64,000 bases of DNA from an uncultured Amylibacter sp. (GTDB lineage: Bacteria; Pseudomonadota; Alphaproteobacteria; Rhodobacterales; Rhodobacteraceae). The stretch lies in the NCBI GenBank assembly GCA_947497475.1, contig CANMGS010000002.1, forward strand, positions 434,001 through 498,000, given 5' to 3'. The translations under genes and the position numbers were made by a program. This document shows, piece after piece, positions 15,024 to 54,103 of this stretch (its first letter is position 1; each line of letters opens with the position of its first letter). The notes beneath the pieces were generated by a model that searched no databases, was not told the origin of the DNA, and saw only the letters and a program-made list of their open reading frames with translations.

Positions 15024-15214
15024 GTGGATTTGATTGGCCTGCGATGATGCGGATTGGATTGCATCACTTACATTTAAAACCAGATGAGTTTTGGGGCTTA
15101 ACCCCATTGGAATTTCTTGTGATTTCTGGATTGGAAGGACGTAAATCTGCGGTGATGACACGCGCGGATTTAGCGGGCCTTTCTGCCCAGTTTCCAGATG
15201 GGAAAACGGAGTGA
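15020..15214 (+). CDS. GTA phage tail assembly chaperone-like protein, g10.1
   Basis: The 64-residue product (MSGFDWPAMMRIGLHHLHL, then KPDEFWGLTPLEF) matches the short tail assembly chaperone found right after g10 in Rhodobacterales GTAs (rcc01693-like). The WPAMMRIGLHHLxLxPxEFWxLTPxE pattern is distinctive. It starts inside the end of g10 (ATGA overlap) and ends just before the tape measure start, consistent with coupled translation. Confidence 0.88.
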   Translation: MSGFDWPAMMRIGLHHLHLKPDEFWGLTPLEFLVISGLEGRKSAVMTRADLAGLSAQFPDGKTE

Positions 15215-15216
15215 AT

Positions 15217-15879: not shown

Positions 15880-15890
15880 GAGGGAATAAT

Positions 15891-16523
15891 ATGACATTTC
15901 ATGAAGAAAGATTTCCTGCGGATTTATCCTTTGGATCTGTAGGCGGGCCTGAACGGCGCACAGAGATCGTTGCGCTGAACAGTGGGTTTGAGGAACGCAA
16001 CAGCCCGTGGGCGCATTCGCGTAGACGCTATGATGCAGGTGTTTCTATGCGGTCTTTGGACGATATGGAAAAGGTGATTGCATTCTATGAGGCGCGTCGG
16101 GGGCCATTGTTTGGATTTCGTTGGAAAGATTGGACGGATTACAAGAGCAGTTTGCCGTCTTTGGATGTGAGTTTTCTGGATCAGGAAATTGGGGTTGGGA
16201 ATGATGTGACCTCTGAATTCCAGCTGTGTAAGGATTATCGATCAGGAGATGAGGTTTATTGCCGAGATATTCGTAAGCCTGTGGAATTTACGGTTGTTGT
16301 TGGAGTTGGTGGTGATGAACTGGAAGAAGGTGAGCATTACACGGTGGATTTGACCACGGGTGTTGTGACGTTTGCAGAACCACCTGGTGAAGGGGCGCTG
16401 ATTACGGCTGGTTTTGAGTTTGACGTGGCGGTGCGTTTTGATGCGGATCGTTTAGAGATGAGCCATGCGAGCTTTGTGGCTGGCGAAATTCCGAGCATTC
16501 CAGTTGTGGAGTTGCGGGTATGA
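15891..16523 (+). CDS. GTA distal tail protein (DUF2460), g12
   Basis: The 210-residue protein forms the ring between tail tube and baseplate hub. DUF2460 hallmarks are visible: FPADLSFGSVGGPERRTEIV near the N-terminus, SPWAHSRRRYDAGVSMRSLDD, and GPLFGFRWKDWTDYKSS at about 76-92. The C-terminus has a repeated sheet region ending SHASFVAGEIPSIPVVELRV. It overlaps g13 by 4 bp (ATGA). Confidence 0.93.
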   Translation: MTFHEERFPADLSFGSVGGPERRTEIVALNSGFEERNSPWAHSRRRYDAGVSMRSLDDMEKVIAFYEARRGPLFGFRWKDWTDYKSSLPSLDVSFLDQEIGVGNDVTSEFQLCKDYRSGDEVYCRDIRKPVEFTVVVGVGGDELEEGEHYTVDLTTGVVTFAEPPGEGALITAGFEFDVAVRFDADRLEMSHASFVAGEIPSIPVVELRV

Positions 16524-17404
16524 ACGTTCCTGAGGTTTTGAAAGAGCATGTGAAAACTGGTGTGACGAGTTTATGCCGCTGTTGGGTTTTAGTGCGCTCA
16601 GATGGTGAACGTATGGGATTTACCGACCATGATTGTGGTCTGAACTTTGAAGATACGGAGTTTACGCCGACTACTGGTATGGATGCGGCGGCTTTGGAAC
16701 GCTCGACTGGTTTGGCGGTGGATAACAGTCAGGCGGTTGGGGCTTTGAGTTCTGTCGGGCTAACAGATGAAGATATTGAACAGGGGCTTTATGATGGGGC
16801 TTCTATTACGCAATATTTGGTGAACTGGCAGGATACGGAACAGCGTACAATCACGTTTAAGGGCACTATCGGTGAGATTAAACGGGGTTCTGGTGCGTTT
16901 GAGGCGGAGTTGCGCAGTATCAGTGAAGGTTTGAACCAACCGATTGGGCGGGCGTATTTGCGCCAATGTGATGCGCAGTTGGGGGATAAACGCTGTCAGG
17001 TGGATTTGACGCGTGTTGAGTTTACGTCTGAGGCCGAGATCACATTTTCCGTTGGGCAACGTGTTTTGCATCTAAAGGGGCTTGGTGCCTATGATGATGC
17101 TTGGTTTTTGCAAGGGACTGTTGAATTTTTGACAGGGGAGAATGCGGGAGCAGTTGGTGTGATTAAGGTGGATCAGATCAATGGGCCGCGTCGTGTTATC
17201 GAGATGTGGGAAGATTTACGCCATCCGATTGCTGTTGGCGATATGGTTCAGGTGACGACGGGGTGTGACAAGGCCGAAGGTACATGCCGTGCGAAGTTTT
17301 CCAATTTGTTGAATTTTAGAGGCTTTCCAAAGATGCCCGGTGATGACTGGGCACTGTCTTATCCTGTGAGGGATGGGCAAAATGATGGATCAAGCTTGGG
17401 GTAA
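16520..17404 (+). CDS. GTA baseplate hub protein (DUF2163), g13
   Basis: The 294-residue protein builds the hub under the distal tail ring. The N-terminal LCRCWVLVRSDGERMGFTDHD block is the DUF2163 signature. Cysteines in RQCDAQLGDKRC (about 151-160) and GCDKAEGTC (about 252-260) are arranged as in hub proteins reported to bind an iron-sulfur cluster, as in phage lambda gpL. This assignment of the cysteines is by family analogy. It lies 3 bp before the g14 peptidase gene. Confidence 0.92.
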   Translation: MNVPEVLKEHVKTGVTSLCRCWVLVRSDGERMGFTDHDCGLNFEDTEFTPTTGMDAAALERSTGLAVDNSQAVGALSSVGLTDEDIEQGLYDGASITQYLVNWQDTEQRTITFKGTIGEIKRGSGAFEAELRSISEGLNQPIGRAYLRQCDAQLGDKRCQVDLTRVEFTSEAEITFSVGQRVLHLKGLGAYDDAWFLQGTVEFLTGENAGAVGVIKVDQINGPRRVIEMWEDLRHPIAVGDMVQVTTGCDKAEGTCRAKFSNLLNFRGFPKMPGDDWALSYPVRDGQNDGSSLG

Positions 17405-17407
17405 TAC

Positions 17408-17857
17408 ATGACATTACTAGAGAAAAAGATCGTTCGTGTGGCGCGTGCGTGGATAGGCACGCCTTATCGTCATCAGGCTTCTGTGAAAGGGCAAGGATGT
17501 GATTGCCTTGGGTTGTTGCGCGGTGTGTGGCGCGAGGTGATTGGAGATGAACCTGAGGCGGTGCCTGTGTATACGGCGGATTGGTCCGAAATGGGGCGCA
17601 AAGAGCGCCTGTGGGTGGCTGCGGCACGGAATATGAAGGCTGTGGAGTTTGATGCAGCACGTGCAGGGCAGGTCGTGCTGTTTCGAATGCGTGCGGGACA
17701 TGTGGCGAAGCATTTGGGGATATTGGCGCGATCAGCGGCGGGGTTTGAGACTGTGATTCATGCCTACACGGGGCGTGGTGTGATTGAGACGCCGCTCACA
17801 GATGCATGGAAGCGTAAGATTGTTGCGCAATTTCAGTTTCCACAGAAGGGAAAATAA
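17408..17857 (+). CDS. GTA cell-wall peptidase (NlpC/P60), g14
   Basis: This 149-residue NlpC/P60-fold peptidase probably opens the peptidoglycan of the recipient during DNA delivery. Catalytic Cys33 lies in GQGCDCLGLLRG and the His is in GHVAKHLGIL (His98 or His102). The third catalytic position is probably His118 in VIHAYTGRG. The N-terminal ARAWIGTPYRHQ segment is typical. It directly precedes the megatron gene without a spacer (stop TAA, then ATG), as in the reference GTA. Confidence 0.93.
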   Translation: MTLLEKKIVRVARAWIGTPYRHQASVKGQGCDCLGLLRGVWREVIGDEPEAVPVYTADWSEMGRKERLWVAAARNMKAVEFDAARAGQVVLFRMRAGHVAKHLGILARSAAGFETVIHAYTGRGVIETPLTDAWKRKIVAQFQFPQKGK

Positions 17858-20800
17858 ATGGCGACGATTTTATTATCTGCGGCAGGGGCTGCTATTGGCG
17901 GGAATATTGGTGGTACTGTTCTGGGTTTGACTGGGGCAGCTATTGGGCGCGCAGCTGGGGCTGTATTAGGCGGTGTGATTGATCAGAAGCTGTTTGGTCA
18001 GGCGGCACCTGTGGTGGAAACAGGACGTGTTGAGAGTTTCCGTGTGCAATCTGCGCAAGAAGGGACTGTTATTCCGCGTGTTATGGGGCGGATGCGTATT
18101 GGCGGGCAGATGATCTGGTCAAGCCGATTTAAAGAAACGGTTCAGACGAGTACGTCTGGTGGTGGCGGAAAGGGGGGATCTGCACCAAAGGTGACCACGC
18201 AGAGTTACAGTTATTCGGTGAGTGTGGCCTTTGCTTTGGGTGAAGGTGTGATTGATCGCGTGGGGCGTATATGGGCTGATGGGGTAGAGGTGCCACATGC
18301 GGAGTTAAACTATACGGTTTACAAAGGGGACGAAGACCAATTGCCTGATCCTGTGATTGCGGCTGTTGAGGGAATTGAGGATACGCCTGCGTTTCGCGGA
18401 ACCGCTTATGTCGTGATCGAGGACTTGCAGCTTGAACGCTATGGGAACCGCATTCCGCAATTGAACTTTGAGGTGTTTCGCAAAGCGCAACCTGAGGGGG
18501 CTTTGGATGAAGATGCTACGAGTTTGGTGCAATCGGTTTGTTTGATCCCAGGGACTGGTGAATATGCTTTGGCGACGACGCCTGTGGATTACGGGTTTGG
18601 GTTTGGCGCTTATGAGAGTGCGAATGTGAATACCAATCGCGGGCAAGCGAATGTGGTGCATGCTTTGGATGATTTGGTGTCTGATTTGCCGAATAACGGT
18701 GCTGCATCGTTGGTCGTGACTTGGTTCGGGACGGATTTGCGGTGTGGGTTGTGTAAGTTACGCCCGCAGGTGGAGCAGAAGCGGTATGAAGGCACGCCTA
18801 TGGCTTGGGAGGTGTCTGGGATTAATCGTGCGCAAGCGATTGAGGTTTCTCAGGATGAAGGGCGTCCTGTGTTTGGGGGGACACCTGCGGATGCTTCTGT
18901 GCTGGAAGGGATTGCAGCGCTTAAGGAGCGAAATCAACGGGTGACGTTTTATCCTTTTATTTTAATGGATATCCAAGAAAATAATGGATTGATTGATCCC
19001 TATACTGGAGAGGTTGGACAACCTGTTATTCCATGGCGAGGACGGATTACGACATCTCTTGCTCCTATGGTTCCAGGAACACCTGATGGAACGTCGAAGG
19101 CTTTGACTGAATTGAGGCAATTCATGGGTAAGGCTTCGGCCGCTGATTTCACGGTTAGAGGGCAAACGATTGAATATACGGGGCCTGCGGAATGGTCCTA
19201 TAGACGGTTTATTTTACATTATGCGCATTTATGTGCTTTGGCGGGTGGCGTGGATGTCTTTTGTATCGGTTCTGAATTGTTAGGCCTAACGCGTATACGC
19301 CTGAGAAGTAATAACTTTCCGATGATTAGTTTTTTGAAGAGCATAGCGCGACAAGTACGCATTATTTTAGGGCCAGATGTTAAAATTGGTTATGCTGCGG
19401 ATTGGTCAGAATATTTTGGATATCATCCACAGGATGGTTCTGGAGACGTATTTTTCAATTTAGATTCTTTGTGGGCAGATGATAATATCGATTTCATTGG
19501 GATTGATAATTATGTGCCCCTGTCTGATTGGCGTGATGAGCCTGGACATGTGGATGCAGATGCTGGCTCGGTATATGATCTAGACTACTTGCGAGGAAAT
19601 ATTGAAGGTGGCGAGGGGTATGATTGGTATTATGCGAGTGAATATGACCGCGAGACCCAAACACGTACGCTGATTAAAGATGGAGCTTACGGAGAAGATT
19701 GGATCTATCGTTATAAGGATTTTACCAATTGGTGGAGTAATAGGCATTATAACAGAGTTGGTGGTGTGCGTTCTGACGAGCCGACTGCATGGATACCGCA
19801 ATCGAAACCAATATTCTTTACGGAATTTGGGTGCCCAGCGGTGGATAAGGGTACGAACCAACCGAATGTTTTTTTGGATGAGAAATCATCGGAATCTGCT
19901 GTGCCATATTATTCTAATGGTGCGCCAGATAACTATATTCAAAGCCAATATCTAAAGGCGATGCTAACTTATTGGGGGGATGAGGCGCATAATCCTGTAT
20001 CCACTTTTTATGATGCACCGATGATTGATCTGGAAAATGCTAGTGTATGGGCGTGGGATACGCGGCCTTGGCCGGATTTTCCTGATCGTTTGAGCTTGTG
20101 GAGTGATGGTGTGAACTTTGCGCGAGGGCATTGGATTTCTGGGCGATTTGCGGATCAAAGTCTTGCAAACGTTGTGCGTGAAATATGTGAGCTGTCTGGG
20201 GTCTCAGATTACGATGTGAGCGGCTTGCAAGGGAATGTCACGGGGTTTGCTATACGTGATGTGGAAACAGGACGACAGAGCTTGCAATCGCTTATGCTGG
20301 CTTATGGGTTTTCGAGTTTTGAAGAGGGCGGTAAGCTAGTATTTAAGACACGTAAGGATATTGAGCCGATTGCGTTGAATGAGGCAGAATTAGCCGTAGT
20401 TCCTGATCAAGGTGATGTTGTTGCAAAGGTACGTGCACCTGATGCGGAGCGCATGGGACGGCTTCGTGTGCAATTTTGGGATCAGAACGCACATTATGAG
20501 GCAGCAGCTGTTGAGAGCCGTTTGACGGGTGATGAGAGCCTGAGAACGTCTTCGGTTCAGGTACCTTTGGTGCTGGATCGTGGAACAGGGCAGAATATTG
20601 CGGATCGTATGCTGAATGAGGCACGTGTGGCGCGTGATGAGATAAAACTTGCCTTGCCGCCGTCACGTGTGGATGTGGCACTCGGGAGTTTTATATCTGT
20701 CGGGGAAAGCCCGCTTGTATATCGCGTGGATCGTTTGGAAGAATTCGGTGCGCGATTGATTGAAGCAACACGTGTTGAACGGCATGTGTTTGATGCGGCA

Positions 20801-21772
20801 TCGGTGATTAACGTTGGGCGTGAACCAGTGCCTGTTGTGAGACCTGCCATTCCATATACAGCCTTTATGGATTTACCTTTGTTAACAGGTAATGAAGTGC
20901 CACATGCGCCGCATTTTGCGGCAACTGGTGATCCGTGGGGTGCTGGTGTGGCTGTGTATAGCAGTAACAGCTCTGATGGTTTTCAGTTGAACACGGTTGT
21001 TGAAGTGAAAACTGTTTTGGGAGTGACTTTAAGTGAATTGTCACGATCAAGCCCCGCGCGCTGGGATTGCGGAGAAGGTGTATTGGTTTTCTTCTCTGAT
21101 GATGTGCAATCTTTATCTAAGCGTGATGTGCTGGATGGCGGGAATGCTGCAGCTATTCGATCTGGAAATGGGGACTGGGAAGTGTTTCAGTTTCAGAATG
21201 CAGAGTTGCAGTCCGATGGTAGTTATCGATTGCATGGGTTGTTGCGGGGCCAAGCGGGGACAGAGTGGATTATACCTGATGTATGGCCTGTGGGTGCGCA
21301 GGTTGTTTTAGTGGGCGCTGGGATTGAACAGATTGATCTGGCAGCATCTGCGCGTGGCCTAGAGCGGAATTACCGTGTGGGGCCCGCGGATAGACCTGTT
21401 TCGGATGCGGCTTATCAGCAGCAATCATTGAGCTTTGAGGGGGTGGGATTACGGCCCTATGCACCTGTGCATTTGCGGGCTCAGACAAATGGTCATGATT
21501 ATGACTTTAGCTGGATACGCCGGACACGCATTGATGGGGACAGTTGGCAATCACTTGAAGTGCCTTTGGGCGAGGATACAGAACGTTATCATATCCGTAT
21601 TTTGTCGAATGATGCTGTTTTGCGAGAAGACGAAACGACTGTACCTGAATGGCAGTATAGCGCTGGGGATGTAACGACTGATGGCGCAAATGGAGAGATC
21701 ATTTTTGAGGTTGCGCAGATATCAGAGCGATTTGGAATTGGACCATATAATAGGATGACATTAAATGTTTGA
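17858..21772 (+). CDS. GTA host-contact protein (megatron, GTA TIM-barrel protein), g15
   Basis: At 1304 residues this is the largest protein of the window. It trimerises at the tail tip and contacts the recipient cell. It begins with a glycine/alanine-rich hydrophobic segment (1-45), continues with a tail domain (RGQVIPRVMGR-like at about 70-85), then the glycoside-hydrolase-like TIM barrel (about 430-740, with GSELLGLTRIR, DNIDFIGIDNYVPLSDW and FFTEFGCPAVDKG motifs) and C-terminal receptor-binding beta domains. The segment from about 18.95 to 20.0 kb is visibly AT-richer than the rest of the gene. It overlaps the next gene by 8 bp. Confidence 0.95.
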   Translation: MATILLSAAGAAIGGNIGGTVLGLTGAAIGRAAGAVLGGVIDQKLFGQAAPVVETGRVESFRVQSAQEGTVIPRVMGRMRIGGQMIWSSRFKETVQTSTSGGGGKGGSAPKVTTQSYSYSVSVAFALGEGVIDRVGRIWADGVEVPHAELNYTVYKGDEDQLPDPVIAAVEGIEDTPAFRGTAYVVIEDLQLERYGNRIPQLNFEVFRKAQPEGALDEDATSLVQSVCLIPGTGEYALATTPVDYGFGFGAYESANVNTNRGQANVVHALDDLVSDLPNNGAASLVVTWFGTDLRCGLCKLRPQVEQKRYEGTPMAWEVSGINRAQAIEVSQDEGRPVFGGTPADASVLEGIAALKERNQRVTFYPFILMDIQENNGLIDPYTGEVGQPVIPWRGRITTSLAPMVPGTPDGTSKALTELRQFMGKASAADFTVRGQTIEYTGPAEWSYRRFILHYAHLCALAGGVDVFCIGSELLGLTRIRLRSNNFPMISFLKSIARQVRIILGPDVKIGYAADWSEYFGYHPQDGSGDVFFNLDSLWADDNIDFIGIDNYVPLSDWRDEPGHVDADAGSVYDLDYLRGNIEGGEGYDWYYASEYDRETQTRTLIKDGAYGEDWIYRYKDFTNWWSNRHYNRVGGVRSDEPTAWIPQSKPIFFTEFGCPAVDKGTNQPNVFLDEKSSESAVPYYSNGAPDNYIQSQYLKAMLTYWGDEAHNPVSTFYDAPMIDLENASVWAWDTRPWPDFPDRLSLWSDGVNFARGHWISGRFADQSLANVVREICELSGVSDYDVSGLQGNVTGFAIRDVETGRQSLQSLMLAYGFSSFEEGGKLVFKTRKDIEPIALNEAELAVVPDQGDVVAKVRAPDAERMGRLRVQFWDQNAHYEAAAVESRLTGDESLRTSSVQVPLVLDRGTGQNIADRMLNEARVARDEIKLALPPSRVDVALGSFISVGESPLVYRVDRLEEFGARLIEATRVERHVFDAASVINVGREPVPVVRPAIPYTAFMDLPLLTGNEVPHAPHFAATGDPWGAGVAVYSSNSSDGFQLNTVVEVKTVLGVTLSELSRSSPARWDCGEGVLVFFSDDVQSLSKRDVLDGGNAAAIRSGNGDWEVFQFQNAELQSDGSYRLHGLLRGQAGTEWIIPDVWPVGAQVVLVGAGIEQIDLAASARGLERNYRVGPADRPVSDAAYQQQSLSFEGVGLRPYAPVHLRAQTNGHDYDFSWIRRTRIDGDSWQSLEVPLGEDTERYHIRILSNDAVLREDETTVPEWQYSAGDVTTDGANGEIIFEVAQISERFGIGPYNRMTLNV

Positions 21773-22478
21773 ATCATATCAATTTAAATTACCATTTTTA
21801 CAGGCGTCGCAGGCGCAAAAACATGTGACTGTGAATGAAGCTTTGGCACGATTGGATGCTTTGTCACAATTGACCTTTGTGTCTCGGTTTGATGATGTGC
21901 CCAATGCGCCATTAGATGGGCAAACCTATGTTGTGCCCGTTGGTGCGACTGGAATTTGGTCTGGGCAAGATCACAGAGTTGCATTGTTTTTGAATGGTGG
22001 TTGGGTTTTCGTGGATGCCCGCAATGGATGGATGGCTTGGGTCGTCGATGAAGCTGTTCAACTGCGGTTTCTTGATGGTTTTTGGGATGTTGTAGGCCGT
22101 TCTCAAAACACTGCGCTGGGTTTTTCCGAAAGAGTTGATATTCAATTTGACCACCAGATTATGGCTGGAGCAAACAACCAGACATCTGTTGTGATCCCGC
22201 ATCATAGTAGCGTGATAGGAGTAACCGCACGTGTAATTGACGAAATTGTATTTTCGGGTGCAACTGATTTTAATCTTGGCGTTGATGGTTCTGATAATAG
22301 GTATGGCAGTGGTTTTGGGCATTTTCAGAATACTTATATCCAAGGACTTACTGGGCAACCGTTGACCTATTATTCGGATACACCGCTGTTGTTGACGGCC
22401 AATGGTGGAGATTTCGTCAGTGGAGTCATAAGATTTGCCATTCATACTACACAGCTAACGCCGCCTGAAGCAGTTTGA
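21765..22478 (+). CDS. DUF2793 protein, putative GTA-associated fibre or spike
   Basis: The 237-residue product starts with the DUF2793 domain (about 8-110). Signatures are LPFLQASQAQKHVTVNEALARLDAL, then GQTYVVPVGATGIWSGQDHRVA and the Trp-rich GGWVFVDARNGWMAWV run. The second half (about 120-230) is a beta-rich domain reminiscent of phage fibre tips. DUF2793 proteins accompany GTA or prophage structural genes, and cell-surface binding is the usual suggestion. It overlaps g15 by 8 bp, so it is expressed with the tail. The C-terminal half is AT-richer, hinting at rapid exchange. Confidence 0.8.
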   Translation: MFESYQFKLPFLQASQAQKHVTVNEALARLDALSQLTFVSRFDDVPNAPLDGQTYVVPVGATGIWSGQDHRVALFLNGGWVFVDARNGWMAWVVDEAVQLRFLDGFWDVVGRSQNTALGFSERVDIQFDHQIMAGANNQTSVVIPHHSSVIGVTARVIDEIVFSGATDFNLGVDGSDNRYGSGFGHFQNTYIQGLTGQPLTYYSDTPLLLTANGGDFVSGVIRFAIHTTQLTPPEAV

Positions 22479-42194: not shown

Positions 42195-43582
42195 CCAAAG
42201 ACATTATTCCGCCAAAGCCAAGAAGCCGGCCTGATAAAGTCACAATGTTGCAGCATATGCGATTGTTCCGAAAGGATATTTTTGCATCTCAACCGCAGAA
42301 ATTATACCGTGCGTGGATGGCAGAATTCAAACTACCATTCTTTAAGTCATATTTTGTGAACGATCCTAAACTTGTGGATCATGTGTTAAAGAAAGATCCT
42401 GATAATTTTCCAAAATCTGAAATCATAAAAGGGGCGCTTTATTCTTTACTAGGAGATGGTGTTTTTGTCTCTAATGGTGAGTTGTGGAAACGTCAGCGTC
42501 GTATCATTGATCCTGCTTTCGAAGGTGGGCGTTTGCGCGATGTTTTCCCATCTATGGTCGCGGCGGGAACTGATGCTGTTGAACGCTTGGGGAAGCTTAC
42601 TGGTCAGCCATCTATCGAGATTGAAGAACAGGCCAGTCAATTAGCCGCTGATATTATCTTTCGTACGTTATTTTCGATCCCAATAACAGATGATGATGCG
42701 AAGCAAATATTTGAAAAATTTAAGGAATATCAGCGTACTCAACCACTTATGACTGTTGCAAGTTTTCTTAAGATACCCAATTGGATACCAAAGCTTCAAC
42801 GCAGAAGTACCAAACATGCAAGCGCTGAAATCCGCAAACTTTTAACGTCTTTGACGCAAGATCGGTTTGAAGAGATTAAAGCTGGGACAGCGCCTGACGA
42901 TTTAGCGACAAAGATAATGACAACTCGTGATCCTGTTACAGGCGATTTATTTTCACCGTCTGAAATGGTCGATCAGGTGGCAATATTTTTTCTTGCTGGG
43001 CACGAAACATCGGCAAGCGCATTAGCTTGGACTTTATATTTATTAGCGATTGATCATAAGACACAAGACAAGGTTGCAACGGAGGTCGCGGCAATAGACG
43101 AGCTTAGTTTTTCTAACCTCTCAAAAATGCCTTTTACACGCGATGTCTTTCGTGAAGCTTTACGTTTGTATCCGCCAGTTCCGATGATGGTGCGTGAAAA
43201 CATTAAGCCTGAAGTGTTCCGTAAACGTGAAATTAAAGTTGGCAGCCAAATTGTCCTAAGCCCATGGCATCTTCAACGGCACGAACGTTTTTGGGATAAG
43301 CCAGATGTGTTTGATCCTGGCCGCTGGCAGCAAGATGCCGCCAAGAAATCATCACGTGAAGCTTATATGCCGTTTTCAGCTGGGCAACGTGTTTGTACTG
43401 GGGCAGGGTTTGCAATGATTGAAGGTGTATTGATGATTGCAATGATCATCAAAGCATTCAAGATCGAGCCAACAGAAGAAAAACCAGTCCCAGTCGCACA
43501 TTTAACTGTTCGAGCCGAGAATGGTATTCACTTAAAACTCACGTCACGTGCTGTTGGTGCCAAGACAGAACAAAAAGCCTGA
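42191..43582 (+). CDS. Cytochrome P450
   Basis: The 463-residue soluble P450 has all hallmarks: I-helix AGHETSA with Thr273, K-helix ExxR as Glu322 and Arg325 in FREALRLYPP, the PERF-like DPGRW region near 375-379, and the heme-ligand loop FSAGQRVCTGAGFAM with Cys402. The loop is FSAG where most have FGxG. The substrate is unknown. The preceding membrane protein overlaps it, and no ferredoxin is adjacent. The 3' end overlaps a convergent ribbon-helix-helix gene by 44 bp. Confidence 0.95.
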   Translation: MTKDIIPPKPRSRPDKVTMLQHMRLFRKDIFASQPQKLYRAWMAEFKLPFFKSYFVNDPKLVDHVLKKDPDNFPKSEIIKGALYSLLGDGVFVSNGELWKRQRRIIDPAFEGGRLRDVFPSMVAAGTDAVERLGKLTGQPSIEIEEQASQLAADIIFRTLFSIPITDDDAKQIFEKFKEYQRTQPLMTVASFLKIPNWIPKLQRRSTKHASAEIRKLLTSLTQDRFEEIKAGTAPDDLATKIMTTRDPVTGDLFSPSEMVDQVAIFFLAGHETSASALAWTLYLLAIDHKTQDKVATEVAAIDELSFSNLSKMPFTRDVFREALRLYPPVPMMVRENIKPEVFRKREIKVGSQIVLSPWHLQRHERFWDKPDVFDPGRWQQDAAKKSSREAYMPFSAGQRVCTGAGFAMIEGVLMIAMIIKAFKIEPTEEKPVPVAHLTVRAENGIHLKLTSRAVGAKTEQKA

Positions 43583-43796
43583 TAGCGCTTGCAAGGCCTG
43601 CATCCACGAGACGAGCGGCGTCGATTTTAGCTGCAAGTTCATTTATCGGAATATTTTCTGTCTGTGCAATCTTTACGAAGGCCTGCCAATAGGGGGCTTC
43701 AAGTGAAACACTTGTTCTATGCCCACGCAAGGTGAGCGAATGTTTTTGAGGGCGGCCGAGATTAAGATCGGCAATTAATGTATCTATCGTCGTCAT
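43539..43796 (-). CDS. Ribbon-helix-helix domain protein (RHH_4 type)
   Basis: The 85-residue protein matches the alphaproteobacterial RHH_4 family: RPQKHSLTLRGHRTSVSLE forms the strand that inserts into DNA, and PINELAAKIDAAR with LASAIRLFVLSWHQQ forms the helices. It probably binds DNA as a dimer, or serves as a small regulatory protein. It follows the first Hint-domain gene by 19 bp on the same strand, so they are likely co-transcribed. Its end overlaps the P450 gene. Confidence 0.82.
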   Translation of the reverse strand: MTTIDTLIADLNLGRPQKHSLTLRGHRTSVSLEAPYWQAFVKIAQTENIPINELAAKIDAARLVDAGLASAIRLFVLSWHQQHVT

Positions 43797-43815
43797 TACT
43801 AGCCTCTAAGCTGCG

Positions 43816-44823
43816 TTAAGAGAAAAGGGAAAAGCCTTCTTCTTCTAGTGACATGACTTCGTTCACACGTAGAATTTTCCGTGCTGACGGGCCATATGTA
43901 CCCGTATTTGTTTCTAATTCAGGAAAAATTTCAAATAACTCTTCGCGAGGAGCATCATCAATCGCGGACATAGACATGTGACCAGGATGAAAACTTTCTG
44001 TTTTTGTGCCATTTGCAAAAATGATTTCATGTTTGTCAAAAAGGATATGGATATATTCTGTTTGTTTGATGTTATAATCCACGGTGACAGAGTAGTCGTT
44101 AATCAAACCTTTTGCTGGGGCTAGAACTTCGCGTTCTCCATGGTTGATCAAAGCACGGTCGGCATCAATCAACATGCGGTGCTGTGGGGATACGTGCATA
44201 TCACGATAAGGCAGCCCAGGACCAAACGCATCCTTACGAATTCGGATTGGGCGCAGCTTCGGATAGGCCATTAAGCGCGCGCCAGTCATACGCTTTTTAC
44301 CGACCCAACGGACAGCTTGGAGGCCATTATCAGCTGTAATAACAAGATCATCAACCTGTAAGTCTTCAACAGGGATAGAGCCACGTGGTGTCGCGATCAA
44401 TGTGCCAGGAGTAAAGCAAATAATGCTCGGGATTTCTTGGTATGGAATATTCGTATTGCCTGAAGATAGGTTAATATTCCTGATTTGTTGTCCTTCAACA
44501 AGATTACCTTCAAGTATAACAATACGATTTACCGCATCATCTACGCCATCATTTGCCGCTGTAAGATATGCGAATGTAATTGGCTGCCCATTTACAGTGC
44601 CTGTATATACTTCAACTGCGTTACCTGTCTGTGCATAATTTGGATATGCAGAGGACGTAAAATCAACACCGTTAATACTGAACTGTACGCCTGTATCCGT
44701 AGTATTTGGTTGTAAAAAACCATCATCATCTGGAACTGTCACAGTTTCAGCAATGCCAATCCGCAGTCGGAATGCACCTAAAGGGTCTCGGTCAACCCGA
44801 AATGATGTAAATGACTGTGGCAT
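43816..44823 (-). CDS. Hint-domain protein 1 (Hint_2 family)
   Basis: The 335 residues divide into an N-terminal beta-rich domain (1-130, MPQSFTSFRVDRDPLG and VPDDDGFLQPN), then a Hint domain from the putative nucleophile Cys136 (CFTPGTLIATPRG) through VSPQHRML (about 205) to ANGTKTESFHPG, and a C-terminal tail (EELFEIFPELE). Hint domains cleave or splice polypeptides through a thioester at the Cys. The Asn that inteins need at the end is not seen, so splicing is unlikely and autocleavage or secretion-linked processing is possible. It is paralogous to the gene at 45006. Confidence 0.85.
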   Translation of the reverse strand: MPQSFTSFRVDRDPLGAFRLRIGIAETVTVPDDDGFLQPNTTDTGVQFSINGVDFTSSAYPNYAQTGNAVEVYTGTVNGQPITFAYLTAANDGVDDAVNRIVILEGNLVEGQQIRNINLSSGNTNIPYQEIPSIICFTPGTLIATPRGSIPVEDLQVDDLVITADNGLQAVRWVGKKRMTGARLMAYPKLRPIRIRKDAFGPGLPYRDMHVSPQHRMLIDADRALINHGEREVLAPAKGLINDYSVTVDYNIKQTEYIHILFDKHEIIFANGTKTESFHPGHMSMSAIDDAPREELFEIFPELETNTGTYGPSARKILRVNEVMSLEEEGFSLFS

Positions 44824-45005
44824 TTACCGCTCTGCACCGCTTTCATGAGCAGAGAAGCCACACTTATATGTATGATCTGAACTGCCCGCCTCATTATGCT
44901 CTTTATACCCATCTAACGTGGATTTGAGCTTGTTAGGTACAAGATACAGTTTTTTGGATTTTATAGCAATAAATTAACACTTTTCAGGTGTTAAAAGTTA
45001 TATTA

Positions 45006-46067
45006 TCAAAAATCATTTAAAAACATATTCTTGTGTTTTAATGTTAATGTGTAAGAGCTGTTTTTGATTTTTGACTTCGACTGAAGCGTAGCTGCTTCCG
45101 TCACTGATAGGGATTGTCGTGCACTTGGCCCATAAATTCCAACATCTGTATCTAATTCAGGGAAAATTTCAAATAGCTCGTCTCTGGCTGCATCATCCAA
45201 ACCATCTATAGAAGCTTTATTTGGGTGAAAACTTTCAGACCAAACGCCATTCGCTTGGATTAGTTCGTGTTTGTCGAATAGAATATGTATGTATTCTGTT
45301 GCTTTAGCGTTGTGGTCCAATGTGACCGTGTGATCGTTGAGAAGCCCTTTGGCTGGTATGAGGATTTCATGAGAACCAAACATAACCTGTGCTTGCTTGG
45401 ACTTTATAAACATACGGTGTTGTGGTGAAACGATTAGGTCTCTTTCTGGTTTATTATGCCCAAATGCGTGTGCTTTGATTCTTATGGGGCGCAAGTGGGG
45501 ATGTGCTTCCATCCGCGCACCAGATATATATTTTCTTCCGATCCATCGTATAGCCTGTAAGCCATTATCTGAGGTGATAACAAGATCACCTACCTTTAAG
45601 TTTTCAATTAAAATTGGGCCGGTAGGAGTGGTTATTGTCGTTCCTGGTGTAAAACATGTAATACTTGGAATACCACCTTTGGTATAGGGAAGCTCAGTAT
45701 CTGTACTTACAGGGGTAATGCTTGTGATGCTATCACCAGGATTAATTGTTCCTGAAAGAACCACTAGGCGGTTTATGGCGTCTCCTATGCCATCACCTGC
45801 GGCTGTTAAATAACCGAATGTAACGGTTTGACCGCCTACCGTCGCAGAGTAAATTTCAACACCTGTACCCTGACTCCCCGGGAAAGCCGTTGAGGTAAAG
45901 TTGGTGCCGCCAATTGAAAATTGCGCTGTGCCAGACACATCGTCGCCGCTAGATTGTAAAAATCCGTCATCATCAATAACATTAACCGTTTCGATAATAC
46001 CTGCTGTGAGAGGGCCGCCATTTAGCGGGTCGCCATCAACGCGTATAGATAGAAATTGTTGAGGCAT
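45006..46067 (-). CDS. Hint-domain protein 2 (Hint_2 family)
   Basis: The 353-residue protein has the same plan as its neighbour: N-terminal domain (MPQQFLSIRVDGDPLN, IDDDGFLQSS), Cys138 opening CFTPGTTITTPTG, the VSPQHRMFI block, WSESFHPN, and a tail containing DELFEIFPELDTDVGIYGPS. It carries about 20 extra C-terminal residues (SKIKNSSYTLTLKHKNMF) not present in the paralog. It begins 36 bp after a repeat-containing unknown gene, and a TATAAA-like sequence lies about 35 bp before its ATG. The N-terminal domain is a family I cannot name. Confidence 0.85.
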   Translation of the reverse strand: MPQQFLSIRVDGDPLNGGPLTAGIIETVNVIDDDGFLQSSGDDVSGTAQFSIGGTNFTSTAFPGSQGTGVEIYSATVGGQTVTFGYLTAAGDGIGDAINRLVVLSGTINPGDSITSITPVSTDTELPYTKGGIPSITCFTPGTTITTPTGPILIENLKVGDLVITSDNGLQAIRWIGRKYISGARMEAHPHLRPIRIKAHAFGHNKPERDLIVSPQHRMFIKSKQAQVMFGSHEILIPAKGLLNDHTVTLDHNAKATEYIHILFDKHELIQANGVWSESFHPNKASIDGLDDAARDELFEIFPELDTDVGIYGPSARQSLSVTEAATLQSKSKIKNSSYTLTLKHKNMFLNDF

Positions 46068-46103
46068 TATGTAACCTCGCAGCTGTGTTTATATGTGTTC
46101 CAA

Positions 46104-47000
46104 CTACGCATCATGAGTAATAGACCTGTATGTTGCGCCTTGCTTGGCTTCGTACTCGCGGGCTTGGGATTGGAGCATTAAATAATGCTCCATAGCGTTG
46201 TTTTGTATCCAGCTTTCAGTCTTAGTTGCGTTTTCGCCAGCAACATCTTTGATACCATATGGTAACTCATGTGGCGTAAACGTAACTTTGATGTATGCTT
46301 TCGTTGAAAATGGCAATGCGCGTGGTGCTGTATAGATAACCTTCTTTGGACCGTGGGTGTCTGTGGCTAGTAGAGCGGTTTCAAGAGCATCATCTGTATC
46401 ATCACTGACTTGCTCGGTGTCATCTGCAAAAAACACGCTATCTGTCAGAACTTCGTTTTGGTGGAATTCGAAAATTGTTGTCTTGTTGTCTTGTTCCTCT
46501 TCTGTTTGGGGAGGTATTTTATCTTTAAATACAGAAGCTTCCCGATTTTTAGTTCTTACTGCTTCTGTCGGTGATGCCGGATCTATACACATTGGAGTGT
46601 TCTGAAGCTGCGTTTTATTCAGAACGAGTAAACGTGTTACTTTTAATGAGGTGCTGTCTTTGGAAGATGTGAGATCATCCCATGGTGGCAAGTTCATATC
46701 AGTAAGTAGTTTTTGACGAATACTTTTTAACCGTGCCTCATAAGATGTATTGTTTTGAACTATCTCTGGCTTTGAATGCGTCGTGCTTACTGTTTGTAAG
46801 TTTGGTTTATGTTCTGGTGCGTCGCTTAAAAGCTTTTGTCGAGCAAGTTTTAAGCGCTCATCGTATGAAAGCTGTTCGGTTTGTGTAGTTTTTTGCTTGT
46901 TTTTAGTGTTTTTCGTAGGTGTCAAACACACTGATTGATCCACTGACAATGTCAACGGATTACGCACACTCCTGCCTGCCTTAACGCCTGTACTAGCCAT
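46104..47000 (-). CDS. Repeat-containing, probably disordered protein, function unknown
   Basis: The 298 residues are polar and low in hydrophobics, suggesting disorder. A 16-residue element (SYDERLKLARQKLLSD) recurs about 45 residues later as SYEARLKSIRQKLLTD, both helical and basic. The C-terminal 75 residues look folded (PFSTKAYIKVTFTPHELPYG, then MEHYLMLQSQAREYEAKQG). I use the ATG at 47000 rather than a TTG at 47006. It lies directly upstream of Hint protein 2 (36 bp), so the two may share a transcript. No family recognised. Confidence 0.6.
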   Translation of the reverse strand: MASTGVKAGRSVRNPLTLSVDQSVCLTPTKNTKNKQKTTQTEQLSYDERLKLARQKLLSDAPEHKPNLQTVSTTHSKPEIVQNNTSYEARLKSIRQKLLTDMNLPPWDDLTSSKDSTSLKVTRLLVLNKTQLQNTPMCIDPASPTEAVRTKNREASVFKDKIPPQTEEEQDNKTTIFEFHQNEVLTDSVFFADDTEQVSDDTDDALETALLATDTHGPKKVIYTAPRALPFSTKAYIKVTFTPHELPYGIKDVAGENATKTESWIQNNAMEHYLMLQSQAREYEAKQGATYRSITHDA

Positions 47001-47160: not shown

Positions 47161-47195
47161 AAAAACAAATGGCCCCATCAAAATGATAGGGCCAT
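47161..47195 (-). terminator. Rho-independent terminator after fumC
   Basis: ATGGCCC (47169-47175) pairs with GGGCCAT (47189-47195) with an inner ATC/GAT extension, and the minus strand runs into TTTGTTTTT. It ends the fumC transcript. The flanking 218-bp gap up to the repeat protein gene shows no other feature. Confidence 0.8.
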
Positions 47196-47224: not shown

Positions 47225-48616
47225 CTATTTGGGGCCAATCATATCTTTTGGTTGTACAACTTCGTCAAAACGCTCAGCTGTTACAAAGCCAAGATTTACA
47301 GCTTCTTCTTTCAAGGTTGTACGGTTTTTGTGAGCTGTTTTTGCCACTTTCGTCGCATTGTCATAGCCAATTTCAGGTGCAAGTGCAGTTACTAGCATTA
47401 AGCTTTCCCACATAAGTGAGCTGATGCGATCTTCGTCTGCTTCTAATCCATCTATACAGTTGTCTCTAAATGCAACGGCTGCATCTCCAAGCAATTGCAT
47501 AGATTGCAGGACGTTGTAAGCCATCATCGGCTTGTAAACATTCAACTCAAAGTGGCCTTGAGAGCCAGCAAAGCCTACAGCAGCATCATTTCCGAATACA
47601 TGTGCACAAACTTGTGTCAGTGCCTCGCATTGTGTCGGGTTAACTTTGCCTGGCATAATAGATGACCCAGGTTCATTTTCTGGAAGAACCAATTCACCTA
47701 AACCACATCGAGGACCTGAACCTAATAATCTGATATCATTAGCGATTTTGAATAAAGATGCGGCAACTGTTTTCAACGCGCCAGACATTTCAACCATGGC
47801 GTCATGTGCGGCTAATGCTTCGAACTTATTAGGTGCTGTTACAAATGGCAGGCCTGTAATTTCAGCCATATTTGCGGCCACCATTTCACCCCAACCTTTG
47901 GAGGTGTTTAGACCTGTACCAACAGCGGTACCACCTTGAGCTAAAGGATAAATGTTGTTTAGTGCGTGTTTGACACGCGCAATACCCTGTTCAACTTGAA
48001 ATGCATATCCGCCAAACTCTTGGCCCAATGTGAGCGGTGTCGCGTCTTGGGTGTGTGTACGGCCAATTTTAATGATATCTTTGAAAGCTTCTGCTTTCGC
48101 AGCAAGTGCTTCATGCATCTTTTCCAAACCTGGGATCAAGACATCATTCGCAGTCATTGCCGTTGCAATATGCATGGCTGTTGGAAACGTATCGTTTGAA
48201 GATTGGCCCATATTACAATGGTCATTAGGGTGAACAGGGGACTTCGACCCCATTTCGCCATTTAGGATTTCGATTGCGCGGTTAGAAATAACTTCATTTG
48301 CATTCATGTTAGATTGAGTACCAGAGCCAGTCTGCCATACAACCAAAGGGAAATGATCATCCAAAGCGCCTTCAAAAACTTCGCCAGCAGCTCTGATGAT
48401 AGGTCCGGCAATATCAGATGATAATTTACCAAGTTCAAGGTTAGCTTGTGCACAAGCTTGTTTAATTGCGCCTAACGCCCGTACGATTGCCACAGGTTGC
48501 TTTTCCCAACCGATCGGGAAATTGATCAAGCTGCGTTGTGTTTGTGCGCCCCAGTATTTATCTGCTGGAACTTCCAACGGACCAAAGCTATCGGTTTCTG
48601 TACGTGTCGTAGTCAT
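47225..48616 (-). CDS. fumC: Fumarate hydratase class II
   Basis: This iron-independent TCA-cycle enzyme converts fumarate to malate. The 463 residues contain [35 protein letters not shown] in parts, [17 protein letters not shown] and the superfamily signature [11 protein letters not shown] at about 315-325. I chose the ATG at 48616 ([14 protein letters not shown]), preceded by GGAGA, over a frame from 48640. It lies between unrelated Hint and methyltransferase genes and is closed by its own terminator. Confidence 0.96.
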
Positions 48617-48697
48617 TCTACGTCTCCCCAAATGTATCATAATTTCTATAATAGGCTTTGGGGGGGCTGCACAAGTCGGTGAAGCGCTATATTCTGG

Positions 48698-49901: not shown

Positions 49902-51005
49902 TTATACTAACAGGCGGCTTTCATATCCTTTAAGGCTACGTACTGCGGATTTTCCATATGTAAAAATGTTTTTACGAAGCTCTGGAAAAAGCGTGTAAAT
50001 TTCTTCGCGGGCGTTTTTATGCATTGCGTGTAAGACTTGTTTGCCGGGATGAAAGCTTTCTGTTGCAATGCCTTCAGCATATATCACTTCGTGACGTTCA
50101 AAGAGTATGTGGTAGTATTCTATGTAGCCGCCTTCAATTGCTACAATAGTATCTCCATTCACCAGATCTTTGGCTGGTACTAAAATTTCAGATTGACCTA
50201 GTAGCAATTCAGCTTTGGCATCCTTAATCACCATACGGTGCTGCGGCGATACCATAAGGTCACGGTTGTTCTGCATTGCACCTTCTGTAATCAATATAGG
50301 GGCAATATCACCCAAAGCTTTAACCGTCGTTGAACCAATCCATTTTACCAATTGGTAACCGTTATCACGCGTTAAGACTTTATCGCCAACGTCAATGGAT
50401 TCGATGGTTTTTGAGCCTTCGTTTGTTAAAATCTGTGTTCCACGAACAAAGCACGGCACAATAGATGAGCCGATGTTTAATATACCGTTTCCTGTTTCAA
50501 CTGATGGAGGGGCCGAAATGTTACCATCACCGTTAAAATCCAAATCCGTTTCATGGTTGAATGTTAACGGGCTTGTACTGTTGGCGATATTTGATCCTGG
50601 TGCAATAAATAGATTACCATTCAGGCTTGGCGCACCTGCATCGCTTGATATTAGAACGCCAGAGTTGATGCGGATATATGTATCGCCGATACCATCAATG
50701 GAATTTTGGATAGTTGCGGTCTGACCAGGGTTTTGCGGTGTGTAGGAAAATTTAACAGTCCCAGCCGCAAAATCGGCAGCATTTTCAAAGACCTTTATAC
50801 CAATAAAACCTGCTGAACCTGTGATTTCACCATTGGCTGGTACATCCTGGATTTCAAAAACAACAATATCATCATCTTCAAAAACGGAAGGACCTGTGCC
50901 AACTGTTATGAGGCCTGCGTTATTATTTCCAGCACCAGATAAGGCATTAACGTTTGGGTTTAGGATCATATCTGATCCATTTACCACTAAATTACTAATT
51001 ATCAT
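49902..51005 (-). CDS. Hint-domain protein 3 (Hint_2 family)
   Basis: The 367-residue protein has a different, longer N-terminal beta domain (1-180: [18 protein letters not shown], repeated Gly/Asn, and a DLDFNGDGN calcium-loop-like stretch at about 154-162), then a Hint domain from Cys185 ([13 protein letters not shown]) through VSPQHRMVI to [10 protein letters not shown], and a tail ending in [12 protein letters not shown]. The Hint half is clearly related to the two other Hint proteins 4-6 kb away. No splicing Asn is apparent. Probably secreted or surface associated, though no signal peptide is seen. Confidence 0.85.
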
Positions 51006-51267: not shown

Positions 51268-52017
51268 TCAATAATCTGATCTAGCAATTTTACGATTGTT
51301 TTTTATTATAAATTCGTAATGTGACAAGCTGGGCGATAACTCTCGCAAGAGTTTTTCTTTTATTGCTCTTGCATAATCATCATATCCATATGCCGCTTGC
51401 ACAAAGGATCCATGGCCTCTTACAACGTTTTTTTCAAAATATGTGAGTAATGATAAATCCTCATCTAAAATGACCAAAGCATTTATCGTAATGTCTTTTG
51501 CTTCTAGAATAGTGGAAACACTCTTTGGGTCGTTGCCTCGGTTGCTAAATCCATCTGAGCTTATGTCAATTACACGCTTATAACATGGTTTAGGATTTCT
51601 ACGTAACAGCTTGTTTGCATGTATTAAAGCGTTCCCAATAGCTGTCATTCCACTATTTTCATAGCGGGTTATATCATCCACTTTTTCAGCAAAATCAAAT
51701 GCTGTCCTTTTATCCTTAACACTTTGCCAATTTAGAACAACGCGCTGGTCGAATTCACCTGACCACTGAGTCAATGCAATTTGGATGCCTCCTGGTAAAT
51801 AAGAGACGAGCTCAATCAGCTCTGGATCACGAAATGCAGAGGCAATGCCTACACGCTGTAATCGATATTCTTTCCAGTCGACACTGCCAGAGACATCTAA
51901 TGCTAGAATAAGTTCGATAGAACAACGATTTTGTGCATAAGCATCAATAGGCCCAATACCAATTAAGGCTGCGCAACAGAACTGGGCAAAACGCTTAAAT
52001 CTCATGAAAGGTGTCAT
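51268..52017 (-). CDS. DUF1194 secreted protein (von Willebrand A-like), copy 1
   Basis: The 249-residue product has an N-terminal signal peptide (about 1-28, FCCAALIGIGPIDAYA) and a von Willebrand A-like domain with the metal-site motif LALDVSGSVDWKEY and a second conserved region DISSDGFSNRGNDP. DUF1194 proteins are predicted to be exported, but their role is unknown. It is a paralog of the gene at 52479, and the tmRNA gene lies between them on the same strand. The basic C-terminus (KNNRKIARSDY) differs from that of the paralog. The start is uncertain (ATG at 52017 or 52005). Confidence 0.85.
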   Translation of the reverse strand: MTPFMRFKRFAQFCCAALIGIGPIDAYAQNRCSIELILALDVSGSVDWKEYRLQRVGIASAFRDPELIELVSYLPGGIQIALTQWSGEFDQRVVLNWQSVKDKRTAFDFAEKVDDITRYENSGMTAIGNALIHANKLLRRNPKPCYKRVIDISSDGFSNRGNDPKSVSTILEAKDITINALVILDEDLSLLTYFEKNVVRGHGSFVQAAYGYDDYARAIKEKLLRELSPSLSHYEFIIKNNRKIARSDY

Positions 52018-52133
52018 TCGTCATGGGCATTTAGAAATGCTACAAGATAATTATAACTATGCAATCCTTGATGATCTGACTGTGGTCACAATTCTGTGGG
52101 GATAGATTATAAAAAAATGGCTTTGTTTTGGAA

Positions 52134-52440
52134 AGTGCAGGTTTCTGTTGCAAGGTACCTGCGAACCCCGCCTAACGCGGCTAGGCGTTAGGAGTTAAGT
52201 TTCGATATTTCGAACTGCTTACGCAGCTAGAGCTACCGGAGCACGATTGTCATTTGCAATTGTACAGTTTTCGCCGATAACGGTGGCAGACAGCCGAGTA
52301 AAAGCTAACATCTTTAGACGTCCGTCGATCCTATTTCGACCCCATACCGCCCTCAAATGAAGGGATTTTTGGTGGAGTCGCCGGGTACCGCCCCCGGGTC
52401 CGATCCGTTTATTACATGCGCGTTTATCACCATAGTCCCC
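52134..52440 (-). ncRNA. ssrA: Circularly permuted transfer-messenger RNA (two-piece tmRNA)
   Basis: On the minus strand the acceptor piece comes first and ends in encoded CCA at 52372. A short spacer follows, and then the coding piece starts near 52345 with GGGGTCGAAATAGG. GGGGTCG pairs with CGACTCC of the acceptor piece to form a 7-bp acceptor stem with a G3-U70 pair, the alanine identity mark. The tag frame at 52257-52219 encodes ANDNRAPVALAA and TAA, a typical alphaproteobacterial ANDN...ALAA tag. A hairpin (52137-52162) marks the 3' region. Outer ends are approximate. Confidence 0.93.
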
Positions 52441-52478
52441 GAAGGAACAAATTTAATATAAGGTGTTAAGGCTGCTAA

Positions 52479-53219
52479 TTAAAGGGGTTTATTACGCAAT
52501 TTAGGGAAAGTATCATTATTGTATCCGATTATTGGTGCGGACAATTCTTTTAACAGTTTCTCGGACATAGCACGTTTATAATCCTCATAGCCAAGTGCGA
52601 GCATAGAAAATGATCCAAACCCATGGATGACTTCGGTATCAAAATATCCTTGTAGTTCTTTTTGTTTATTGAAAATCGGATTTTGCGTGTCTTTATCAAG
52701 ACTTACAACCAGCCCATTAACAACGATGTTATCAAAGTCTATCGCCATATACGTCTCTTGTGGTGTTTTGCCGTCATTATTGCTTCCATCACCTGAAAGA
52801 TCGATTGTACGACGCCAGCAATGTTTTTTCTGATCTAATATAGATTTGCTGAATTTAAGTGCTGAACCAATCGCAGTTTTTAAAGTAGCGCGGTCTTTAC
52901 GATGGTTGGCTAACACAGATGCGATATTAATCAGAGTTTCGCGAGACTTAAGTTCAGTCCAGTTCAATATCATTTTTTGATGTAGGTCCGAACTCCATTC
53001 AAATATGCTAAGTGTAATAGGGGCTTCTGGCTCTGATAAGATCAGTTCTTGGACATCTGGGGCTAGCAATGCGTTCGCGACACCAGAAAGCTGTAAGCGG
53101 TATTCGGTTGGATCTACGGACCCTGATATATCTAAAGCTAATACAAGCGCGTGTCTGCAAGCAGCGGAAGCCGGGACTGTCGCCATAGTGATGAGTAATA
53201 GGATGTAGGCCAATCTCAT
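52479..53219 (-). CDS. DUF1194 secreted protein (von Willebrand A-like), copy 2
   Basis: The 246 residues begin with a signal peptide (MRLAYILLLITMATVPASA, cleavage before ACRHAL) and then the von Willebrand A-like domain with LALDISGSVDPTEYRLQ and DLSGDGSNNDGKTP. The C-terminal GFGSFSMLALGYEDYKRAMSEKLLKEL aligns with the copy at 51268. I use the ATG at 53219, as a longer frame from 53369 would bury the signal peptide. The copies have diverged widely, so the duplication is old. Confidence 0.87.
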   Translation of the reverse strand: MRLAYILLLITMATVPASAACRHALVLALDISGSVDPTEYRLQLSGVANALLAPDVQELILSEPEAPITLSIFEWSSDLHQKMILNWTELKSRETLINIASVLANHRKDRATLKTAIGSALKFSKSILDQKKHCWRRTIDLSGDGSNNDGKTPQETYMAIDFDNIVVNGLVVSLDKDTQNPIFNKQKELQGYFDTEVIHGFGSFSMLALGYEDYKRAMSEKLLKELSAPIIGYNNDTFPKLRNKPL

Positions 53220-53248
53220 GTGAATGGTTTTTGATATCGTATGAATGT

Positions 53249-54103
53249 CTAACCCTTTGATTTTATGTGTGGGGTCCAAGGTTTGCGACTTAACATATCG
53301 CGGTACACCAAAGTGACTAATAAAAAGCTGATATATAGCAATAAATACCAAGAACCCATCTTGCCCCACCTGACCATTTCAAGGCTACCTTGACCTGCAT
53401 ACAACCATGTACCTGTCATTGTGCCAACATTTTCGGCAATCCATAGGAAAAATGATGACAGAAAAGCTGCGACTGGTAAGGGCATCCATCGTGGCGTGAC
53501 GCCAACATAAAACCATATACGCGTGCGCCAGAATATTATTATGGTTGCGGCAAATAAGATATTGCGGATGTCATATGTGTAATGATGGGTGAAAAAGTTA
53601 GTATATATCGCAATAGCCAAAGCGACAGTCATCCAAAAAGGTGGATAAGGGGCAAAGCGCATGTCAAATATGCGAATAACACGCGCCATAAAGCTGCCAA
53701 CACAGGCATACATAAATCCTGAAAACAAAGGAACTTCTGCAATTTTAATATATCCTGGTTCTGGGTAACCCCATGATCCCATTTTGACTTTGAAGATTTC
53801 CATGATGGTTCCAACGATGTGGAACAATAATATGACTTTGGCTTCGTTTAAGCTTTCGAGCTTAAAGACAAGGAATAGAACTTGAGTGGTGATTGCAAAT
53901 ATAAATAACGCATCATAGCGGTGTAATGCCCAATCATCTTGCCAGATGAGTGAGGTGATTATTATAACGATTAAGAAGATTAATCCAAACAAGCTTGCCC
54001 ATGCTTGTTTAAGAAAAAACATGATTAGTTCGGTTAATCCATTGGGTAGGGATTTACGTACCCAATCCCCTAAAATACGTTCAATTTGTAAATTACGCAC
54101 CAC
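53249..54103 (-). CDS. DUF817 integral membrane protein
   Basis: The 284-residue protein has about eight hydrophobic helices and matches DUF817: LFGLIFLIVIIITSLIWQDDWALHRYD, MGSWGYPEPGYIKIAEVPLFSGFMYACVGS in parts, and WIAENVGTMTGTWLYAGQ. Function is unknown. The start is a GTG at 54103, preceded by GGGGGA. It is encoded 29 bp upstream of the second DUF1194 gene on the same strand and downstream of chrR (60 bp), so it might share RpoE-driven transcription. Confidence 0.88.
   Translation of the reverse strand: MVRNLQIERILGDWVRKSLPNGLTELIMFFLKQAWASLFGLIFLIVIIITSLIWQDDWALHRYDALFIFAITTQVLFLVFKLESLNEAKVILLFHIVGTIMEIFKVKMGSWGYPEPGYIKIAEVPLFSGFMYACVGSFMARVIRIFDMRFAPYPPFWMTVALAIAIYTNFFTHHYTYDIRNILFAATIIIFWRTRIWFYVGVTPRWMPLPVAAFLSSFFLWIAENVGTMTGTWLYAGQGSLEMVRWGKMGSWYLLLYISFLLVTLVYRDMLSRKPWTPHIKSKG

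Follow-up and report, generated by a model that had tools for sequence, protein, structure and literature searches.

What do two short Hint-domain proteins encoded side by side near fumC do, and which of their neighbors belong with them? The question is raised by a locus in DNA from an uncultured Amylibacter sp. (Rhodobacteraceae; assembly GCA_947497475.1, contig CANMGS010000002.1, positions 434,001 to 498,000), a stretch of 64,000 nucleotides that we refer to as the window. Here the genes for two Hint proteins, HintA and HintB, lie between a gene for a ribbon-helix-helix (RHH) protein, RHH_4, and a gene for a repeat-containing protein, REP, the latter next to fumC. We hold it to be probable, though not secure, that HintA and HintB are exoprotein precursors in which the Hint domain would free a small beta-rich N-terminal domain, with REP as a fast-evolving partner of HintB. 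An earlier note on this DNA had taken the four genes for a self-processing surface or secretion module with its own regulator; the residues for a first cleavage, a plausible secretion role and a recurring gene order bear out part of that proposal, but a four-gene unit that includes the RHH gene is not supported.

Anatomy of the locus

The four minus-strand genes in a row were all recovered as open reading frames (ORFs) between 43539 and 47006, as the earlier note had described them, together with two elements on the upstream side:

43539–43796, minus strand: RHH_4 ribbon-helix-helix protein, 85 aa (PF13467, 79.4 bits; cut-off 25)
43816–44823, minus strand: HintA, 335 aa (PF13403, Hint_2, 183.8 bits; cut-off 28.4)
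45006–46067, minus strand: HintB, 353 aa (PF13403, Hint_2, 192.3 bits; cut-off 28.4)
46104–47000, minus strand: REP, 298 aa from the probable ATG; the ORF to 47006 gives 300 aa from a TTG
47169–47195, minus strand: terminator-like hairpin 3' of fumC and before the REP–Hint genes; 12-pair stem, then a T run
47225–48640, minus strand: fumC, flank of the slot and outside the module (Lyase_1 380.9 bits, FumaraseC_C 77.7 bits; conserved synteny)

HintB and HintA are separated by 182 bp, and the 19 bp reported between HintA and the RHH_4 gene were confirmed. None of the four proteins had a match in NCBIfam (E 0.1). The relatives of REP start at a position that matches the ATG at 47000, which puts its probable length at 298 residues. 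The hairpin at 47169–47195 is a consensus match only, and the whole scan returned 10 sites against 8.0 in shuffled sequence; a separate transcript for REP and HintB is therefore only likely.

For comparison, 33 stretches around RHH_4 or Hint genes were taken from genomes of the genus, and their ORFs were labeled by BLAST against the window proteins. Nineteen of the 33 genomes are slot genomes, that is, 18 with Hint genes adjoining RHH_4 and G013, in which fumC is followed by a Hint gene. The gene order, for which the earlier note had suggested a neighborhood search, recurs in relatives: REP–HintB–HintA–RHH is found in G000, G018 and G001, in G025 with HintB and HintA separated by an additional Hint fragment of 94 aa, and in G026 with REP set apart from fumC by a third Hint.

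Hint domains and the residues they keep

HintA consists of a beta-rich N-terminal domain (residues 1–135), a Hint_2 domain starting at Cys136 (136–282) and a 53-residue tail with conserved positions; HintB has an N-terminal domain of the same kind and a Hint_2 domain starting at Cys138. The Hint_2 profile is covered from position 1 to 147 and from 1 to 146 of 147, respectively. The shared N-terminal domain noted earlier was borne out, with 53% identity between HintA and HintB over 133 columns; the window copies had no Pfam match, and among 16 members scanned the best match was a weak one to TIG (E 0.023, one member).

Cys1 and the VSPQHRM block are present, and the terminal His-Asn is absent, in line with the earlier description. 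Cys1, the block-B Ser and His, and a Glu-Ser-Phe motif are invariant in 44 of 44 slot Hints, a count that includes two contigs from G001 and one partial sequence from G005 and leaves aside the Hint beyond SspB (G000, G018), two Hints located elsewhere (G003, G028) and the 94-residue G025 fragment. Glu-Ser-Phe occupies the positions of the intein His-Asn. Inteins finish splicing via cyclization of their terminal Asn. With Glu-Ser-Phe instead of His-Asn, ordinary splicing is thus unlikely, and the first acyl shift would still be possible. Assignment of the proteins as inteins was rejected, as the terminal His-Asn followed by Cys, Ser or Thr is absent.

The HintA model, built from 37 sequences (mean predicted local distance difference test score, pLDDT, 78; predicted template-modeling score, pTM, 0.62), is beta-rich in its N-terminal half and ends, after the Hint part, in a helical tail. 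Its top solved matches in Foldseek are inteins and bacterial intein-like (BIL) domains, with the BIL domain 2lwy at rank 5; most alignments span 150–190 columns, a length that fits the Hint part of HintA. The only sequence match to a solved structure below E 0.1 was again 2lwy, and a weak one (E 0.0054, 29 residues). With the Hedgehog Hog domain (1at0, rank 19) HintA shares the fold, the Cys nucleophile and the lack of a second splicing half; nothing in HintA or HintB points to a sterol-recognition region or to sterol transfer.

The retained Cys and His together with the replaced intein C-terminal residues, the conserved tail and the presence of Hedgehog-C among the fold matches would also suit a ligase, in which an amine or hydroxyl, of the cell surface or of a partner such as REP, attacks the Cys1 thioester and the cargo becomes covalently attached, much as lipid is transferred by Hedgehog. 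We regard this as unlikely: there is no known acceptor, and plain hydrolysis accounts for these residues as well. A clade-specific version for covalent display or release, in which the Hint domain of an exported precursor, having Glu-Ser-Phe and not His-Asn, would use the Cys1 thioester to join the lineage-specific beta domain to an acceptor on a surface or in a matrix, with REP as a fast-evolving, disordered escort inherited with one of the precursors, strikes us as distinctly doubtful. Least credible is a polymorphic-toxin system in which the Hint domain would free a C-terminal toxin. Papers on MafB and CdiA toxins do mention Hint and intein-like domains, but all that follows the Hint domain here is a tail of 53–70 residues, much like that of most own-genome paralogs, which argues that no variable toxin domain lies behind it.

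Hint_2 proteins occur at 14 places in the genome of the window, and their N-terminal domains differ widely, with HintA itself conserved in 19 genomes. The N-terminal part of HintB is 22% identical to that of the dispersed paralog L119, as against 53% to that of HintA, and for the Hint domain of HintB the identities are 69% to the L119 paralog and 62% to HintA; HintB is thus a mosaic, and an exchange of Hint and cargo parts may reasonably be inferred. A third Hint_2 gene in the window (49902–51005, minus strand) lies just past SspB and carries a different N-terminal domain; among the opened stretches, an ortholog (79%) was found only in G018.

Relation to described Hint families

HintA and HintB share the pattern of Cys1, SPxH and ESF with most own-genome Hint_2 paralogs, and both exceed the family cut-off more than six-fold in bits. 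They differ from the family at large in their N-terminal domain, which only five of the 295 family genomes sampled, the own genome among them, were found to have, and in their fixed chromosomal slot in the genus. The Hint_2 domain itself was matched in 130 of 149 sampled family genomes, own included, with at least 24 matches in the top genomes. A 2025 study (PMC12487129) reports that it is enriched among Rhodobacteraceae that respond strongly.

BIL domains occur next to calcium-binding repeats; those of B-type sit in variable regions of proteins that are not conserved and are often secreted, and B-type domains of Rhodobacter have reportedly been shown to cleave. The slot Hints carry intein-type N-terminal motifs (Cys1 and Ser/Thr-x-x-His) and lack the C-terminal His-Asn in 44 of 44 cases, a combination that fits the B-type BIL class as reviews delimit it. 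In these reviews, B-type domains are said to lack the intein C-terminal motif (PMC4031507, PMC7765530), to cleave without splicing (PMC4031507) and to cleave at the N- and C-terminal ends (PMC7765530, PMC5874633).

A scan for the N-terminal domain in named genomes returned 17 loci, in Amylibacter, Neptunicoccus sediminis, other Rhodobacteraceae and one alphaproteobacterium, 16 of which are slot-genome contigs of the window genus. Three loci were opened (L127, L134, L137); L137 encodes a HintA-like protein (38%) elsewhere, on a contig with ORFs that by eye resemble ribosomal proteins. A cultured relative, Amylibacter sp. SFDW26, also has the slot (L121). Among the matches listed in literature searches there was no paper on the locus and no functional study of Rhodobacteraceae Hint_2 proteins, and term look-ups in three exoproteome papers (PMC5489592, PMC5839243, PMC3933643) found neither intein nor hedgehog.

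The RHH_4 gene and its neighborhood

Turning to the RHH protein, the position of its gene 19 bp behind HintA, the adjacency of Hint genes to RHH_4 in 18 genomes of the genus, and a possible co-transcription with HintA would all suit the earlier proposal of a four-gene self-processing module with the RHH protein as its own transcriptional regulator. Its distribution speaks against this. RHH_4 was found in 30 of the 33 genus genomes (G012, G013 and G029 gave no match) and is adjoined by one to three Hint genes on its upstream (fumC) side in 18 of these 30; the remaining 12 have no Hint between RHH_4 and fumC (G002, G007, G008, G014, G017, G020, G021, G022, G023, G024, G027 and G031), and seven of the 12 have no match to a Hint query anywhere in the genome. 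The Hint-free gap measures 41–115 bp in seven of them and 379–657 bp, with a small ORF, in the other five. The slot is split over two contigs in G005, and fumC is out of view in G009 and G030.

Beyond the genus, RHH_4 is present in 39 of 41 sampled family genomes, own included. At the 29 best-scoring loci from 38 genomes of other genera, fumC lies within about 1.5 kb of RHH_4 in 26 cases and a Hint gene in one, the other 28 loci having no Hint within that distance. The single case is G063 (L184, 7919–8611, plus strand), a Hint_2-like gene without Cys1, as judged by eye, that shares four bases with the RHH ORF, fumC lying further upstream; the slot has thus been filled in at least one further instance, outside the genus. 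RHH_4 does not co-occur with Hint genes as a regulator would with its targets, and its role as a dedicated Hint regulator was rejected on its distribution across genus and family genomes. We consider the four-gene module with this regulator very unlikely; from gene context, RHH_4 probably behaves as an old conserved neighbor of fumC, adjoining the Hint locus but outside it. The wider backbone lysR-tusA-ccdA-lip-P450 / RHH_4 / fumC / SspB recurs across the genus stretches, with some genes lost.

History of the slot

A species tree was built from five concatenated proteins of 30 genomes and midpoint-rooted; G030 (too few columns), G012 and G029 (no stretch) were omitted. Eighteen slot genomes share one clade (support 0.89) with G008, a genome that gave no Hint match. 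Read most simply, Hint genes would have been gained once in the fumC/RHH_4 slot, by the common ancestor of an Amylibacter clade, and lost once, with HintA kept. In the Hint-domain tree, the HintA orthologs of all 19 slot genomes fall into a single clade of 20 sequences (support 0.985), and the HintB orthologs form a clade of five genomes (support 0.914).

A phage or plasmid origin of HintA was rejected: tblastn with HintA (E 1e-5) returned no phage record, and the 247 matching plasmid records are all below 60% identity. The best 25 of these 247 are mostly annotated as Hint domain-containing protein.

REP, a probable partner of HintB

Matches to REP (E 0.01) occur in exactly the five genomes that carry HintB (G000, G018, G001, G025 and G026), and in five of 61 genomes searched, own included; a profile search found it in one of 198 family genomes, the own genome. 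Drawing the same five of 19 genomes for both genes has a probability of 8.6e-5, a figure that assumes independent genomes, which these are not. G006 and G013, tree neighbors of the five, lack both genes; G006 keeps a 118-residue ORF that is weakly REP-like (E 7e-4).

The repeat in REP described by the earlier note is real: its two copies, SYDERLKLARQKLLSD and SYEARLKSIRQKLLTD, align with a score of 53, reached by none of 300 shuffles (maximum 44). No Pfam match was obtained (E 0.1). A helix motif occurs twice in REP, and its C-terminal region is conserved; the model, from only four sequences, has a pLDDT of 47. The protein is probably disordered, as the earlier note had described it, and is a fast-evolving orphan. 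Between G000 and G018, the ratio of nonsynonymous to synonymous substitution rates (dN/dS) is 0.048 for HintA and 0.031 for HintB and reaches 0.30 for REP, a comparison that is only indicative and to that extent weakens our case, dS being near or past saturation for several genes. The values fit purifying selection on HintA and HintB, and a fast-evolving, weakly constrained REP.

Compatible with our reading of the Hint proteins, and possible in our view if less than even in probability, is the idea that REP and the small ORFs behind fumC form one hypervariable family tied to the slot and not to HintB. Most slot genomes with a visible fumC–Hint gap have a small ORF there, and marginal links connect REP with G006 (E 7e-4), G006 with G011 (0.001) and G011 with G005 (0.001). 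These E-values are marginal, however: the database searched held some 40 sequences, and the BLAST comparisons among the searches were made without composition correction; ORFs of this size can arise by chance, they belong to no Pfam family at curated cut-offs (none of nine scanned came near one), and G013 has no such ORF of at least 50 aa. The ORFs between fumC and the first Hint (for example L095, L096, L099 and L101) are 70–125 aa long, and several show, by eye, a Trp ahead of what looks like a C-terminal helix. In G010 (L094), the gap between the slot Hints and fumC measures 3,191 bp and holds a 921-aa ORF on the opposite strand as well as mutually similar antisense ORFs, possibly an inserted repeat-protein gene.

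Proposed mechanism and export

The anatomy, the conserved residues, the distribution and the co-occurrence of REP with HintB are computed results; autocleavage, the export route and what REP and the cargo domain do are what we infer from them. In the reading of HintA and HintB as exoprotein precursors, each precursor would be exported unfolded, probably via type I secretion that reads the C-terminal end, and the Hint domain would fold outside the cell. Cys1 would then perform an N-to-S acyl shift, aided by the block-B Ser and His pair, and the thioester would be resolved by water or another nucleophile, with release of the N-terminal domain. With Glu-Ser-Phe in place of His-Asn, neither Asn cyclization nor splicing would follow. 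REP would be a partner of HintB, perhaps its escort, inherited together with it.

A type I exporter is the likely route. GGxGxD repeats are a hallmark of type I secretion substrates, and two own-genome paralogs with the same Hint domain and a similar tail, of the kind of RTX (repeats-in-toxin) exoproteins with a C-terminal Hint, carry 19 and 52 of them. PrtD-type exporters were detected in 21 of 24 genus genomes with Hint matches as against three of nine without (the best 30 candidates scored per genome; Fisher p 0.005, which ignores kinship). A rough 12-residue hydropathy scan of HintA and HintB gave N-terminal maxima of 0.97 and 1.56, with no strongly hydrophobic stretch.

Several observations weigh against the precursor reading. 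HintA and HintB differ from the RTX exoproteins in having no GGxGxD motif (0 each), so the argument for type I export is drawn from the paralogs. The own genome has two PrtD-type genes over the cut-off, none of them near the slot; G025, 99% complete and with seven Hint matches, yielded no PrtD and no HlyD above the thresholds applied, G006 has HlyD and no PrtD, and G013 has only a partial HlyD match. The REP–HintB partnership is observed in five related genomes. One review states that B-type domains appear to follow the canonical splicing mechanism (PMC5874633), and the C-terminal cleavage reported in the B-type reviews means that the products may differ from those proposed here. Cys1 is also absent in two of the 14 own-genome Hint_2 paralogs, the Cys1 check giving the following Hint_2-like genes without the catalytic Cys:

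L118, 5233–5892, plus strand: Hint_2-like gene without catalytic Cys
L118, 9796–10464, minus strand: Hint_2-like gene without catalytic Cys

Other features of the window

A transfer-messenger RNA (tmRNA) gene (52128–52465, tag ANDNRAPVALAA) lies between two VWA-like genes, of which 51268–52017 matched DUF1194 and 52479–53369 was judged VWA-like from its translation only. On the plus strand, 8139–22478 holds a phage-like run of genes (terminase, portal, capsid, tail) that, judged from the translations, resembles a gene transfer agent.

Implications for Hint_2 proteins

The earlier suggestion that the locus is possibly undescribed can hold for REP and the N-terminal domain but not for the Hint domains, which belong to a known and common family, Hint_2; what we could not match to anything described is the genus-level slot, the N-terminal domain and REP. 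At 335 and 353 residues, HintA and HintB are easier to test than own-genome paralogs of 1,402 and 2,960 residues, and REP, as a small probable partner gene, bears on whether Hint proteins need a helper.

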